Assembly: GCA_021300535.1 (NCBI GenBank) | Contig: JAJTED010000039.1 | Span: 1 to 44,375 of the forward strand | Source of the DNA: Planctomycetaceae bacterium | Lineage (GTDB): Bacteria > Planctomycetota > Planctomycetia > Pirellulales > UBA1268 | DNA length: 44,375 nucleotides | Direction: 5' to 3' | In this document: piece after piece, positions 11,622 through 24,259 of the stretch | Numbering within the stretch: the stretch's first letter is position 1 | Layout of the letters: every line of letters begins with the position of its first letter | The notes under the pieces: generated by a model | Told to the model about the DNA's origin: nothing | What the model saw: only the letters and a program-made list of their open reading frames with translations | Database searches by the model: none | Made by a program: the position numbers and the translations under genes

Positions 11622-12290
11622 TCACCGCTCGAGCGTGAAGCCCGTCACCAGCCAGCGTTCGACGGATCCGCCCTGCCGCTGCGCATGGCCCGGCTCGACG
11701 ACCAGCCGCAGCGACAGCTCCGGCCGGCCGCAGGGGGCGAGCGAAGCGACGACGACCCAGCCCCCCTCGGTTTCGGCGGCCGGCTCGATCGCCCTCACCC
11801 GCGGCGGCTCCGCGCCGCAGGCCGCAAGTCCACGCACCGCGGCCAGCGCCGCAAAGGCGGCCTCCCGGTCATTGTCCGCCGCCGAAGCCGCCGCGGCTGG
11901 ATGGGCATGCGGCTCACCGCCGGGGAGCGATCGCGGCTCACACACGGCCATCGCGTCGGCGAGCCGGCCCGCGCGGACCGCGTCGATCCAATGCCGTGCC
12001 ACGGCTGCCGCCCGCCGCTCCAACAGCCAGCGCGACACGACCGCCGACGTCACCGCCTGCGCGCCGAAGCCGACGGCCAACGCCAGCCCCGCGACCGCCG
12101 CCCAGCCGCCCGCCTTCTTCGCGCCGGGCCGGTTGACGTCGGCCAGGGCAGCGACGGCCACGCCGATCGCCACGAGCGGAATCACCCAGCCGAGCGGGCT
12201 CACCAGCGCCGCAGCCGCCATCACGCCCGCCGCAAGCGCCGCCACCGCCAGCCGGCTCACCGGCCGGTAGTCGCCACCGGTCTCGTCCAT
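11622..12290 (-). CDS. Small membrane protein of unknown function
   Basis: 222 aa. Two or three hydrophobic segments lie at the N-terminus (about 12-30, 34-52 and 62-85), arranged like the DUF4190-type membrane domain (SPLGWVIPLVAIGVAVAALADVNRPG). A soluble C-terminal part follows (RHWIDAVRAGRLADAMAVCEP and onward), resembling small accumulation or stress domains but not assignable. It is the last gene of the leftward operon, 10 nt after the CvpA-like gene. No catalytic motif is visible. Function unknown. Confidence 0.75.
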   Translation of the reverse strand: MDETGGDYRPVSRLAVAALAAGVMAAAALVSPLGWVIPLVAIGVAVAALADVNRPGAKKAGGWAAVAGLALAVGFGAQAVTSAVVSRWLLERRAAAVARHWIDAVRAGRLADAMAVCEPRSLPGGEPHAHPAAAASAADNDREAAFAALAAVRGLAACGAEPPRVRAIEPAAETEGGWVVVASLAPCGRPELSLRLVVEPGHAQRQGGSVERWLVTGFTLER

Positions 12291-12300
12291 CGCAGCCTCG

Positions 12301-12888
12301 TTACCGGTTCACCCGCAGGCCGGGCTCGCCTTCGAGCCGCTGGCGGCGGTCGGCGTAGCGGATGATGAAATCGGCGTCCTTGTCGAAGGCCGAGCCCGGC
12401 ACCGCAAACGGCCCGGTGAGCGTCGCCCCGCGCACCCACGCCAGCCACTTTCGGTCGGGGGCGAGGCCGAAGAACATCCGCGCCTCGGGCGTCGGCTGCA
12501 CCACGTCGCGTGGCACGGGCGCCGTGTGGAGCGTCGCCGCCGTGAAGCAAATCATCACCCAGCCGACGAGGGCGGCGACGAGCGGACCGCCGAACAGCTC
12601 GACGGGCCGCCGCAGCTTGACCCGCGTCCGCGAGATCCGATCGGTCGCCTCCCGCAGGCCGAGCAGCAGCAGGCAGAACAGGCCCCACAGGGCGACGAAG
12701 TCGAGCAGGTAGGTGAAGCTCGGCAGCCGCGGTTCGAGGACCGCGACGAGCTTCTCGTACCAGGCCGTGGCCACGGTCGCCGCGAGGACGACATTCAGCA
12801 GCATCACGAGGGACGACCAGATGCCCTCCTTCCACAGCGCGGCCGTGACCGTCACGAACACCGCCAGCAGGATCAGCGTGAGGATCAT
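12301..12888 (-). CDS. CvpA-like inner-membrane protein
   Basis: 195 aa with four hydrophobic segments: MILTLILLAVFVTVTAALW, SLVMLLNVVLAATVATAWY, YLLDFVALWGLFCLLLLGL and LVAALVGWVMICFTAATLHT. The spacing and the glycine-poor helical pattern resemble CvpA (colicin V production) family proteins, and planctomycetes encode a longer version with a C-terminal soluble tail as seen here (DKDADFIIRYADRRQRLEGE). The ATG overlaps the stop of the GspE-like gene (ATGA), so it is translationally coupled to the pilus-type ATPases. The CvpA assignment is by pattern only and is less certain than the topology. Confidence 0.7.
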   Translation of the reverse strand: MILTLILLAVFVTVTAALWKEGIWSSLVMLLNVVLAATVATAWYEKLVAVLEPRLPSFTYLLDFVALWGLFCLLLLGLREATDRISRTRVKLRRPVELFGGPLVAALVGWVMICFTAATLHTAPVPRDVVQPTPEARMFFGLAPDRKWLAWVRGATLTGPFAVPGSAFDKDADFIIRYADRRQRLEGEPGLRVNR

Positions 12889-14702
12889 TTCGCCCGCGCC
12901 TCCGCCGTCTCGGGCCGGACCGTAGCCGCCGCGGAAAACACCCGCTGCATCTCCTCCAGCGACGTGACGCCCTCCACCACCAGCGCCATGCCGGCCTCCC
13001 GCATCGGCTGCATGCCGTCCTTGGTGGCGGCCTGCCGGAGGATCTTCGGTTCGGCCTTGGCCGCGATCGCCTGCCGAAAGGTCGAACCCGAGGCGAGCTC
13101 GAACACAGCCGTGCGGCCGAGGTAGCCTGTGCCGCGGCACAGCCGGCAGCCATGGGCCGAGGGCTTGCGGAGGTGGGGCAGCTTCTCGGCTGTCGTCTTC
13201 AGCCGCGCGAGAATCTCGCCCGGCGTGGGATACTCCTCGCGGCACTTCGGGCAGAGCTTGCGGACCAGACGCTGGGCGAGCGATCCCACCAGCGTGCGGG
13301 CCAGGTGGTCGGGCGGGACACCGCAGGCCTCGAGCCGGGCCACCGCGTCCACGGCGTCGGTGGCCTTCATGCTCACGATCACGAGTTTGTCGTCCGCGGC
13401 GAGCCGCACGAGCTCCACGGCCAGCGCCCGATCCCGCAGGTCGCGGGTCACGATGGCGCGGGGATACTCCCGCAGCACCGCCGTCAGCGCGTCGAGCGGC
13501 GTCTTCCCGGTACGGGCGTCGAACTTCACCGGCCTGACGTTCTGAATCTCCCGCGGCGGCAGCGCCGCGTCCTCCAGCGAAATGAAGTCGCGCAGCAGCC
13601 GGTCGGCCGACTGCACGACGACGTCGAACGTGGTCGTCAGCCCGGAGGCCGGCGGCGACGAGACCACGATCAGCCCCTTCTCCAGGGCGAGCAGCTCGCC
13701 GAGCCGGTCGGCGATCGCCGCCGGCATCCCCACGTCGGCGGGCGTCTTGAAGATCGCGGCCGGCGGCTCGATCTGCACCACCACCTGCTCCCCGCCGGAC
13801 GCGGCGCGGACGGCCAGCCGGCAGTTCCGCGGCTTGCCGTCGACCTGCAGCGCAAACGTGCCCGAGCGGCCGCCGCGGGCCTGCGGCAGGCCGGCCAGCG
13901 TGGCCAGCGTGTCGATGACCGCCAGCGCCGCCGCGCGGTCGGGCCGCGGCGCCTCGGGGAAGGTTTCCTTCTCCTTGCGGCTGCGCGGCGGCTTCCGCAC
14001 CCGCGGCTTCTCCCACACGCCGTCCACCTCGTGTCGCACCAGGATGCCCTGCGGGTCGGGCTCGATGAGCACCGTCGCCGCGCGGGCCACGACGGCCCCT
14101 TGCAGCAGCTTGATCGCCTCCTCGCATCCCGGCGTGGCGCCGGCCCGTTGCTCACGGTCGCCGTTCTCGGCGGCGTCGCGGCCGCCCGCCGCCGCGAGCT
14201 TCACGACGGGCAGCACCTCGGCCTCGTCGCGAGCCAGGCCCAGGTCGATGCCCAGGGGTGCGAGCAGGCCGGCGACCACGCGGCGGGCGTGCCCCGCCGT
14301 CAGGATCCGCTCCCCCTCGGCCACCTCCCGGTTGCGCAGCACCGCAAACCCCACCACCGGCCCGAGCCACGCCAGGAGCATGAGCACGAGCCCACCGAGC
14401 GCCGATGGAATCCACCAGGCCAGCAGGGCGGCGACCACGAAGGGCAGCGCCACCACGGTGCTCCACAGCGCCGGGCGGAACGTGTGCCTCCGGGTGTCGC
14501 GGTTGACCGCGTCGACCGTCGCCGCCCAGCCGAGCACGCACAGCCACCAGGCCACCAGCGGCACCACCGCCAGGCCGCCGCCCGGCCCGCGGGAGGCGAA
14601 CTCCACCGGCAGCGCCGCCGGCCAGCCGCCGTCGGCGCGGGCCACGGCCGCCGCCAGGGCGGGCGCGACCGCGGCGACCACGATCCGCACCGGCCGCCTC
14701 AT
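12885..14702 (-). CDS. Membrane-anchored GspE/PilB-like protein with degenerate ATP site
   Basis: 605 aa. The N-terminal 120 residues hold a signal-like segment and three or four membrane segments (VPLVAWWLCVLGWAATVDAV, VVALPFVVAALLAWWIP, LGGLVLMLLAWLGPVVGFAV). The rest follows GspE/PilB: an N2-like domain (RAATVLIEPDPQGILVRHEV) and a C-terminal ATPase fold with the tetracysteine zinc element LCPKC...GCRLCRGTGYLGR and FELASGSTFRQAI. The P-loop is VVSSPPASGLTTTFDVV, lacking the Walker A lysine, and the Walker B region is RAIVTRDLRD instead of a DEIRD-type motif. ATP hydrolysis is therefore doubtful. It is coupled by ATGA to the PilT-type gene upstream, which has an intact P-loop, so it may be a structural partner for it. 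Confidence 0.85.
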   Translation of the reverse strand: MRRPVRIVVAAVAPALAAAVARADGGWPAALPVEFASRGPGGGLAVVPLVAWWLCVLGWAATVDAVNRDTRRHTFRPALWSTVVALPFVVAALLAWWIPSALGGLVLMLLAWLGPVVGFAVLRNREVAEGERILTAGHARRVVAGLLAPLGIDLGLARDEAEVLPVVKLAAAGGRDAAENGDREQRAGATPGCEEAIKLLQGAVVARAATVLIEPDPQGILVRHEVDGVWEKPRVRKPPRSRKEKETFPEAPRPDRAAALAVIDTLATLAGLPQARGGRSGTFALQVDGKPRNCRLAVRAASGGEQVVVQIEPPAAIFKTPADVGMPAAIADRLGELLALEKGLIVVSSPPASGLTTTFDVVVQSADRLLRDFISLEDAALPPREIQNVRPVKFDARTGKTPLDALTAVLREYPRAIVTRDLRDRALAVELVRLAADDKLVIVSMKATDAVDAVARLEACGVPPDHLARTLVGSLAQRLVRKLCPKCREEYPTPGEILARLKTTAEKLPHLRKPSAHGCRLCRGTGYLGRTAVFELASGSTFRQAIAAKAEPKILRQAATKDGMQPMREAGMALVVEGVTSLEEMQRVFSAAATVRPETAEARAK

Positions 14703-15856
14703 CCTCCCATCACTCCGATGCCCTTCAATGCCATCTCCAGCGCCTCGCGGCTGGGCGCGATCTCGAGGGCCGCGTTGCGGTCGATCAGCCCCTGGTCGAC
14801 GAGGCTCTTGAGGCTCATCGTGAAGTCCTGCATGCCGTCCCGAAACGACTTCTTGATATGGTCGGCCAGCTGGTGGTCGAGCCCCTCGAGCACGTACTTC
14901 TTCACGAGCACGTCGAAAAACATCAGCTCGACGATGGGCACCCGGCTCACGCCGGGCTTGATCGACTTGAGCAGCTTCTGGGCGACGATGCCCTTCATGT
15001 TGAAGGCGATGGCGCTGCGGATCGCGGCATGCTCCTCCTGCGGAAACAGGTCGAGAATGCGGGTCACCGTGCTCGGGGCGTTGGCCGCATGGATCGTGCC
15101 GAAGACGAGATGCCCCGTCTCGGCGGCGTGGATCGCCGTCTTGAAGGTCTCCACGTCGCGCATCTCGCCGACCACGATGATGTCGGGATCCTCGCGAACG
15201 GCGTGCTTCATCCCGATCTCGAAGTTCCGCACGTCGGTGCCGATCTCCCGCTGATTGATCAGGCACTTGTCGTCCGTGTAGACGAACTCGATCGGATCCT
15301 CGAGCGTGAGGATGTGCTTGCGGTAGTTTTGGTTGATGTAGTTGAGCATCGAGCCGATCGTCGTGCTCTTGCCGGAGCCCGTCACGCCGGCGAGCAGCAC
15401 GAGCCCCTGGTCGAGCTGGCAGAGCCGTTCGATCGCCGGCGGCAGGAAGAGCCCCTTGAAATCGGGAATCGTGTTGTTGACGCGGCGGGCCACGAGGCCG
15501 AGCGACCCCTGCTGGTAGAGCAGGTTCACGCGAAACCGCCACTTCACGCCGTCGACGACGGCGGAATGCGCGAAGTCGGCGCCGCCGTCGTGCTCGAGGA
15601 TCTTCCGCTGCCGGTCATCGAGCATCGGCAGGCAGAGCCGTTCCATCTGCTCGTCGTCGAGCTTCGGGGCCTTGAGCGGCTGCAGCGCGCCCTTCACCCG
15701 CATGAACGGTGGCTGACCAACCTTGAGGTGCAGGTCACTGCCTTGCAGCCTGACGAGCGCCTCGAACAGGCGGTCGATCTCGAGCGGCGTTCGGGGGCCT
15801 TGGGCGGACCGCACACCGGAGGCCGCCTCGGTGGTGGGTGATTCGCTGGTGGCCAT
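14699..15856 (-). CDS. pilT: PilT/PilU-type secretion ATPase
   Basis: 385 aa. All PilT features are present: an N-terminal PAS-like domain (GSDLHLKVGQPPFMRVKG), Walker A GVTGSGKST (157-165), the Asp box LTLEDPIEFVY, Walker B DPDIIVVGEMRD, the His box GHLVFGTIHAANAPST, and RVPIVELMFFDVLVKKYV downstream. PilT ATPases power retraction of type IV pili; planctomycetes use type IV-like systems for motility, adhesion and possibly uptake. The AIRAGK motif of canonical PilT is replaced near the C-terminus (LDHQLADHIKKSFRDGMQDF), so assignment to PilT rather than PilU or a planctomycete subgroup is open. The start ATG is 61 nt after the hisF stop and the gene is coupled by ATGA to the GspE-like gene. 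Confidence 0.9.
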   Translation of the reverse strand: MATSESPTTEAASGVRSAQGPRTPLEIDRLFEALVRLQGSDLHLKVGQPPFMRVKGALQPLKAPKLDDEQMERLCLPMLDDRQRKILEHDGGADFAHSAVVDGVKWRFRVNLLYQQGSLGLVARRVNNTIPDFKGLFLPPAIERLCQLDQGLVLLAGVTGSGKSTTIGSMLNYINQNYRKHILTLEDPIEFVYTDDKCLINQREIGTDVRNFEIGMKHAVREDPDIIVVGEMRDVETFKTAIHAAETGHLVFGTIHAANAPSTVTRILDLFPQEEHAAIRSAIAFNMKGIVAQKLLKSIKPGVSRVPIVELMFFDVLVKKYVLEGLDHQLADHIKKSFRDGMQDFTMSLKSLVDQGLIDRNAALEIAPSREALEMALKGIGVMGG

Positions 15857-15917: not shown

Positions 15918-16697
15918 TCAGCCGCCGGCGGGACGGACGGGAATCCCCCGGCGGGCGAACTCCTCCTTGACCGCCCGGATCGTACACTCTCCGAAGTGGA
16001 AGATGCCAGCGGCCAGCGCCGCGTCGGCACCCCCGATGGTGACTGCGTCGGCGAGGTGCCCGGGGCCGCCGGCGCCGCCGCTGGCCACGACCGGAATCCC
16101 CACCGCACGGCTCACCGCCGCCGTGATCTCGAGGTCGTACCCGTCCCGGGTGCCATCGCGATCCATGCACGTGAGCACGATCTCGCCGGCGCCGAGCTCC
16201 TCCACCCGGCGGGCCCAGGCCACGGCGTCGAGTCCCGTCGGCACGCGGCCGCCGTTGATGAACACCTCCCACACCTCGCGGCCGTCACGGGCGACCCGCT
16301 TGGGGTCGATGTTCACCACCGTCGCGCAGCTGCCGAGCCGGTCGGCGACGGCGGTGACGAGTTCCGGCGTGCGAACCGCCGCCGAGTTGATGCTCACCTT
16401 CTCGGCGCCCGCCTGCACGAGCCGCGCGGCGTCGTCGAGCGTGGCGATCCCACCGCCGACGGTGAACGGCATGTAGATCGTCTCGGCGACCCGGCGAACG
16501 ACGTCGAGCATGATCGCCCGCCCCTCGTGGCTGGCGGTGATGTCGAGGAACACGAGCTCGTCGGCCCCCTCGGCCTCGTAGCGGGCGGCGACCGCCACCG
16601 GATCGCCGGCATCGACGAGGTCGAGGAACTTCGTCCCCTTCACGACCCGGCCCCGCTCCACGTCGAGGCAGGGGATGACCCGTCTGGCGAGCGTCAT
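15918..16697 (-). CDS. hisF: Imidazole glycerol phosphate synthase cyclase subunit
   Basis: 259 aa, normal length. The (beta-alpha)8 barrel markers are [19 protein letters not shown] (catalytic Asp12), [25 protein letters not shown] (first phosphate site), [19 protein letters not shown] (second catalytic Asp), [17 protein letters not shown] and [14 protein letters not shown]. HisF uses ammonia from the HisH glutaminase to form IGP and AICAR in histidine synthesis. No hisH or other his gene is in the window; instead hisF is coupled to thiG (ATGA overlap at 16694-16697). The appearance of a thi-his-pil operon is therefore by position only. Confidence 0.96.
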
Positions 16698-23312: not shown

Positions 23313-24259
23313 CCGCCCGGAGCCCGCGTCTCGTCGCCGTTCCGCGGCGCCAGGGGCTGACGCTCGTCGAGCTGCTCGTCGTGATGGCGATCATCGGCCT
23401 CCTGGCCGCCATGCTCTTCCCGACGATCCAGGGCGCGCGGGAGGCGAGCCGACGGATGGCGTGTTTGAACAACATCCGGCAGCTCGGCCTCGCCGCCAGC
23501 GTCCATCACGACGCCCGCGGCTGGTTTCCCGCCGGCAGCCTGATCGCAGCCGACGGCACCTCGTGGGGGCTGACGGTGTCGCTGCTGCCCTACCTCGAGG
23601 AGCAGGTGCTGTTCGACTCCGTCGTGCTGCACGCCGGCGGGGCCTGTGGCCAGGTGCGGGCACTGCAGGCCGCCGGCAAGCCCGATCCCGCCTCACGACG
23701 GCTGGCCGTGCTCGCCTGTCCGTCCGACCCGCAGGCCGGCCGGCCCCTGCAGAGCGGCCCATCCGGCCCGCTGCCGACGTCGGGCGACTGCGGCATCGTC
23801 CATCCGGGCAACTACCTCGGCGTGGCCGGCCGCGAGGAGGCGGTGGACGCCTCGCAGCCGATCAACAAGTGCTACACCAGTCGCGGCATCGACGCGGGCA
23901 CGGGGCTCTTCTATGACGACAGCCGCACACGGATGAAGGACGTCGCCGACGGCCTCTCCAAAACGCTCGCCATCGGCGAGCGGGGCGTGCCCGAGGACCT
24001 CGGCTGGGGCTGGGTGATCGCCGGCGGGCAGGAGTGCGAGCAGTATCTGGGAGCCGCCCGCGGCGTGTTCCGTCCGACGCTTCCGGGCAACGCCTCCACG
24101 GCCGACGAGGAACTGCTCCACTGGTGGAGCTGGCACGCCTCGGGCCCCCACTTTGCCCTCGCCGACGGCAGCGCACGGGCGATCTCCCCTGACGTCGACC
24201 ACGCCGTGTTCATGGCTCTGTCCACCCGTGCCGGGGGAGAGGTCGCGGCGGTGCCGTGA
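23309..24259 (+). CDS. DUF1559 pseudopilin-like protein
   Basis: 316 aa. After a short basic leader the type IV prepilin-like segment is RQGLTLVELLVVMAIIGLLA: the G|LTLVE cleavage and N-methylation site with a hydrophobic helix. The family core follows: AREASRRMACLNNIRQLGLA, GTSWGLTVSLLPYLEEQVLF, LACPSDPQAG, NYLGVAG, GLFYDDSRTRMKDVADGLSK, TLAIGERGV, and the C-terminal HASGPHFALADGSAR. DUF1559 proteins occur in many copies in planctomycete genomes and are thought to be exported by a type II/IV-like apparatus; the PilT and GspE-like genes at 12885-15856 could belong to such a system. Last gene of the sugar operon, followed by a strong hairpin. Confidence 0.94.
   Translation: MTARSPRLVAVPRRQGLTLVELLVVMAIIGLLAAMLFPTIQGAREASRRMACLNNIRQLGLAASVHHDARGWFPAGSLIAADGTSWGLTVSLLPYLEEQVLFDSVVLHAGGACGQVRALQAAGKPDPASRRLAVLACPSDPQAGRPLQSGPSGPLPTSGDCGIVHPGNYLGVAGREEAVDASQPINKCYTSRGIDAGTGLFYDDSRTRMKDVADGLSKTLAIGERGVPEDLGWGWVIAGGQECEQYLGAARGVFRPTLPGNASTADEELLHWWSWHASGPHFALADGSARAISPDVDHAVFMALSTRAGGEVAAVP

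Follow-up and report, generated by a model that had tools for sequence, protein, structure and literature searches.

The motor ATPases GspE, of type II secretion, and PilB, of type IV pili, are known as soluble motors. In Vibrio cholerae, a PilT with a dead Walker A motif still supports retraction driven by PilU (PMC6821130), and the zinc element of EpsE is essential for its function (PMC5061722). In Escherichia coli, where cvpA lies beside purF, its product has been associated with the production of colicin V and with resistance to bile salts (PMC6705877). In this study, we examined a locus of a Planctomycetaceae bacterium (assembly GCA_021300535.1, 86% complete) in a stretch of 44,375 nucleotides from contig JAJTED010000039.1, hereafter the window, where a GspE-type protein with an N-terminal membrane region (mGspE) is encoded between a PilT-type ATPase and a CvpA-like protein. 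Comparative sequence analysis gives good support to the conclusion that mGspE is a conserved membrane pseudo-ATPase within the GspE/PilB family. Our literature search found no description of the protein or the locus, and no link of CvpA to a GspE.

All the catalytic motifs of the window protein are altered. Its P-loop reads VVSSPPASGLTTTF, in which the lysine of the Walker A consensus GxxGxGK[ST] is missing; the Walker B region is RAIVTRDLRD, with TRDLRD where the consensus has GE[IM]RD; the Asp box, EDAALPP, carries a two-residue insertion relative to EDPxE; and the His box is DKLVIVSMKATDA, from which both conserved histidines of GHxVxxTxH have gone. The zinc motif is intact (C484-x2-C487...C519-x2-C522) and its four cysteines are invariant in our alignment A1, a retention that fits the essential role of this element in EpsE. 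Further invariant positions of the alignment include D227, G354, D367, R368, R371 and R481, G354 lying in the P-loop; Leu355 of the P-loop is kept in >90% of the alignment, as is Glu377, and the QRLVRKLC and DG motifs are kept in homologues. The protein scores 166.7 bits with TIGR02533, for which the cut-off is 630, and falls far under every NCBIfam equivalog cut-off for GspE or PilB. The ATPase part of an AlphaFold model (mean predicted local distance difference test score 71, built from 26 sequences) resembles PilF, EpsE (GspE) and PilB (Foldseek E down to 9e-31; target-normalised template modelling score ~0.8). From the missing residues we infer that, in the window's order, the mGspE beside PilT has lost ATP catalysis.

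We searched 60 genomes drawn from the genus, the family and the order to which the window belongs; relatives of mGspE are present in them and nearly all sit at the same operon. The Walker A lysine is missing in every operon copy read, 69 of them membrane-anchored and six without transmembrane (TM) segments, across ~20 families of the order. It is replaced mostly by L, and also by M, F, Y, C, G or T. Both His-box histidines are uniformly lost in the operon copies, and the Gly-Glu of Walker B has changed, in most cases to Arg-Asp, with Glu retained by a few homologues. The sole lysine-bearing exception at this operon in the order is a tandem copy without TM segments, in which the other motifs are degenerate. 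At that locus (L206 4253-7601, genome G325) two GspE genes follow pilT: the product of the first has a membrane region and reads GDGTTT, and that of the second is soluble and reads GDGKST but is degenerate elsewhere. Because the lysine is missing in all families, a sequencing or frame error was rejected as its cause. The ratio of non-synonymous to synonymous substitution rates (dN/dS) between mGspE relatives is 0.08-0.25, and mGspE is thus under purifying selection, which rules against a decaying pseudogene. An earlier note, made from the letters of the window, had pointed to the lost lysine, an altered Walker B region and a kept zinc element; the first holds in all operon copies of the order but the one tandem copy, the last throughout alignment A1, and the Walker B change, present in the window and usual in the order, is not shared by the few homologues with Glu.

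By hydropathy, nearly all mGspE copies begin with a region of two to four hydrophobic segments; the window protein has three to four, and the AlphaFold model places its helices, with modest confidence, at residues 3-22, 46-72, 77-95 and 101-124. The membrane helices described in the earlier note are thus real and conserved. They are predicted to stand where soluble GspE and PilB have their N1 domain, and in this the protein departs from the soluble members of the family. Positive residues in loops 64-77 and 123-140 predict a cytoplasmic position for the ATPase part. W59, D69, W80, P115, Y119, N124, T135 and H138, in or near the membrane region, are nearly invariant.

The presence of this membrane region tracks that of cvpA. 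The window cvpA product matches Colicin_V/CvpA (PF02674, E=2e-7) at 31.5 bits, just above the gathering cut-off of 29.3, and several distant CvpA-like homologues score under that cut-off. A same-strand cvpA adjoins 137 of the 143 GspE copies that have the membrane region and 0 of the 17 that lack it, counts that are not phylogenetically independent and hold 2-3 independent pairs on the tree, nearly all in the expected direction. Two further entries without TM segments, one on a cut contig and one a tandem copy, stand outside the 17. For the six membrane-region copies with no adjacent cvpA, the gene occurs elsewhere in at least one of the genomes, and in two a short copy in inverted orientation lies close by. 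No cvpA was found genome-wide in any of 20 genomes without the membrane protein or its membrane region (20/20), and those genomes of the class without protein or region that were checked keep the operon PilT, often beside hisF. Since the membrane region tracks cvpA, and both have been lost together in several lineages that retain pilT, CvpA, more than PilT, is by these gene distributions the tightest genetic partner of mGspE.

The PilT-type partner has every motif in place (GVTGSGKST, TLEDPIEF, VVGEMRD and GHLVFGTIH), matches the T2SSE domain of Pfam at E=1e-40 and reaches 385 bits with TIGR01420 (pilT_fam), above the cut-off of 319. None of 130 PilT-type sequences (0/130) has lost the Walker A lysine, the Walker B glutamate, the Asp-box ED or the histidines. 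The three genes are tightly packed, as the earlier note had described: ATGA overlaps join the pilT stop to the mGspE start and the mGspE stop to the cvpA start, the start-stop overlap of pilT and mGspE is nearly universal among homologues, and the pair is conserved across the order. The coordinates of the locus are collected in Table 1. The hisF gene lies 5' of pilT in ~30 distant loci of the window's order; across the phylum it is the steadiest neighbor of the operon pilT, even where GspE and cvpA have gone. The fourth operon gene has no match in Pfam or NCBIfam, and an Rfam search of the surroundings of the locus gave no matches.

Table 1. Features of the hisF-pilT-mGspE-cvpA locus in the window, listed in the direction of transcription.
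Feature	Position	Strand	Evidence or remark
hisF (imidazole glycerol phosphate synthase cyclase subunit)	15918-16697	-	PF00977 E=3e-76; conserved neighbor upstream of pilT
pilT-type ATPase gene (PilT*)	14699-15856	-	TIGR01420 385 bits; catalytic motifs all intact
Membrane-anchored GspE-type gene (mGspE), 605 aa	12885-14702	-	PF00437 (T2SSE) E=9e-39
mGspE N-terminal membrane region	14331-14702	-	hydrophobic segments at residues 5-23, 45-63, 78-96, 104-122
mGspE degenerate P-loop, residues 348-358 (SPPASGLTT; Lys to Leu)	13629-13661	-	
mGspE tetracysteine zinc element, Cys484, 487, 519, 522	13137-13253	-	
cvpA-like inner-membrane protein gene, translationally coupled (ATGA)	12301-12888	-	PF02674 31.5 bits
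Fourth operon gene, 222-aa membrane protein	11622-12290	-	23 loci of the order have a homologue at this position

Outside the window's order the catalytic state differs. In the same class, lineages f21, f78, f79 and f80 have an mGspE with the membrane region and a downstream cvpA, mostly beside pilT, in which the motifs are intact (G[AS]GKST, EDP, GEIRD, GHMVF); in f81, f82 and part of f78 it is partly degenerate. The order hisF-pilT-mGspE-cvpA recurs in other classes of Planctomycetota, where the mGspE copies read have as neighbors a cvpA-like gene and a pilT of 42-48% identity. The Walker A lysine has given way to R, V, L, Q, G or T in almost all of these copies; two keep it, one of them (f43) with all motifs intact. 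As the earlier note had supposed, the family was found only in Planctomycetota among the genomes searched: neither 96 genomes from the phylum to which a Verrucomicrobia record belongs nor 10 further genomes gave a listed match that reached the membrane region. The live copies in sister lineages lead us to reject the dead state as a universal property of the family. In a quick tree the membrane GspEs form one clade against canonical PilB and GspE (Shimodaira-Hasegawa-like approximate likelihood ratio test support, SH-aLRT, 100) with live copies basal; L159, a live GspE that has no clear membrane region, also groups within this clade. As live copies are basal and occur in sister lineages, the loss of catalysis is secondary. 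The dead copies may go back to a single loss or to several; quick trees group some of them, with weak support and long branches, and a tree that keeps the order's dead copies with the live copies of their class is not rejected (approximately unbiased test, AU, p=0.31).

Besides the dead copy, the window's family often has another membrane GspE that is fully live and is accompanied by a cvpA-like gene of its own (L246 4530-7262 in genome G022; L247-L255). This second pair has no neighboring PilT, and ~5 kb separates its GspE from the dead membrane copy in G022. No live membrane paralogue came to light in the window's own assembly, which is 86% complete. The window genome does have a separate live pilB-pilT-gspE-pilC-pilin locus and, near a purL-like gene and away from other pilus genes, an orphan GspF/PilC-like platform gene (L259 5786-6817, C189). 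In lineage f21, an extra soluble GspE paralogue without the lysine stands outside the operon (L154-L158), with a dapA-type gene just upstream in 3/5 loci.

The reading that we favor, tentatively and as something short of probable, is that the pseudo-ATPase mGspE is held in the membrane with CvpA and docks or regulates the live PilT-type motor. mGspE together with CvpA would make up a mount or regulator that is bound to the membrane and independent of nucleotide; the PilT-type hexamer, live and soluble, would dock on it, with PilT alone supplying the power. In lineages with a live mGspE, this complex would run on both a GspE-like and a PilT-like motor. Such a scheme presumes contacts between mGspE, CvpA and PilT and, possibly, a role at a filament. 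A dead ring as the required partner of a live one is plausible because PilT with a dead Walker A supports PilU in V. cholerae (PMC6821130).

Several observations weigh against this scheme. A number of lineages retain hisF-pilT without mGspE or cvpA, so PilT needs no mount in them. One genome (G057, 92% complete) retains a dead mGspE and cvpA without an operon-type PilT, and in sister lineage f21 pilT is often unlinked from mGspE-cvpA. Genomes with only one of the two proteins weaken the idea of an obligatory mGspE-PilT partnership. The shared ancestry behind the cvpA counts belongs here as well, as does the chance that a P-loop lacking the lysine retains nucleotide binding. The locus has no gene for a pilin, platform protein or secretin. 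The earlier note had proposed that a dead, membrane-fixed ATPase anchors a PilT-type ring, perhaps to serve the many DUF1559 pseudopilins, and had named homologues with an intact P-loop at the same locus as evidence to the contrary. A dead mGspE does stand beside a live PilT order-wide, but PilT is not its tightest link, the membrane region tracking cvpA instead. Likewise, the P-loop is dead in the whole order, but intact G[AS]GKST and GEIRD motifs are what the sister lineages carry at the same locus; a role as dead anchor therefore cannot be what defines this family. The link to DUF1559 found no backing, with ~25 copies scattered in the genome, one in the window (23429-24199) and none at the locus.

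The main rival, credible although less than likely, is that mGspE and CvpA are a membrane machine or sensor of their own, independent of PilT, and that pilT is merely co-expressed. The almost perfect covariation of membrane region and cvpA, and their joint loss, would be expected of such a unit; G057, the loose linkage in f21 and the second live pair without a neighboring PilT in the window's family speak for it too. It explains less well why the adjacency of pilT and mGspE and their start-stop overlap are kept order-wide, and why the adjacency recurs in other classes. It is unlikely that the dead mGspE instead serves as a regulatory subunit, tuning assembly by mixing with, or competing against, a live GspE or PilB (the chromosomal one or the second live mGspE). 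Its homology to extension-type ATPases, the kept ring-interface motifs and live paralogues in the same genomes, within ~5 kb in G022, would suit such a role, whereas the synteny of mGspE is with PilT and CvpA, and many genomes, among them that of the window, yielded no live membrane paralogue. More unlikely still is a nucleotide sensor in which mGspE binds, and perhaps slowly hydrolyses, nucleotide through its unorthodox P-loop: this loop is non-random, as the conservation of Gly354, Leu355 and Glu377 in alignment A1 indicates, but all operon copies lack the Walker A lysine and both His-box histidines, and the Gly-Glu of Walker B has changed as well. A decaying remnant without function is highly improbable, for although catalytic residues have been lost, and in some relatives the membrane region too, the low dN/dS, invariant zinc cysteines, open frames in all families and conserved operon contradict it.

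On a wider scale, it is conceivable, if doubtful, that hisF-pilT-mGspE-cvpA underlies a phylum-wide, hitherto undescribed filament or envelope machine. CvpA would embed its GspE motor in the membrane, doing the job of GspL/GspF, and in at least two lineages the motor would independently have turned into a dead ring, acting as stator or mount for a PilT-type rotor. What the window's order offers is a natural experiment, in which the catalytic residues were lost and the fold, zinc site and anchor were kept beside a PilT that is always intact. This suggests a former engine turned membrane-bound mount or regulator. If so, the structural role of one ring would be separated from the power-giving role of the other, a question so far studied with point mutants, and Planctomycetota, whose envelope machines are little known, would gain a conserved and testable module. 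The covariation with mGspE also provides a handle on CvpA, a membrane protein of unclear function.

It is important to place these proteins among the systems described. With GspE and PilB, mGspE shares the T2SSE domain, the order of N2D, ATPase and zinc elements, the four zinc cysteines and the PilF/EpsE/PilB fold. It differs from them in having no Walker A lysine or His box, an altered Walker B Gly-Glu, a cvpA partner and an N-terminus made of membrane helices instead of a soluble N1 domain. Live pairs of membrane GspE and CvpA, both in sister lineages of Planctomycetota and in the window's own family, have the same membrane region, GspE domain, zinc cysteines and downstream cvpA, and most of them, unlike the window protein, have all catalytic motifs. 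The cvpA product of the window is, like other members of the CvpA family (PF02674), a small inner-membrane protein. In PilT-PilU of V. cholerae and Acinetobacter baylyi, two related motor ATPases are likewise encoded together; there both are PilT-type and naturally live, whereas here one is GspE-type, membrane-anchored and naturally without catalytic residues.

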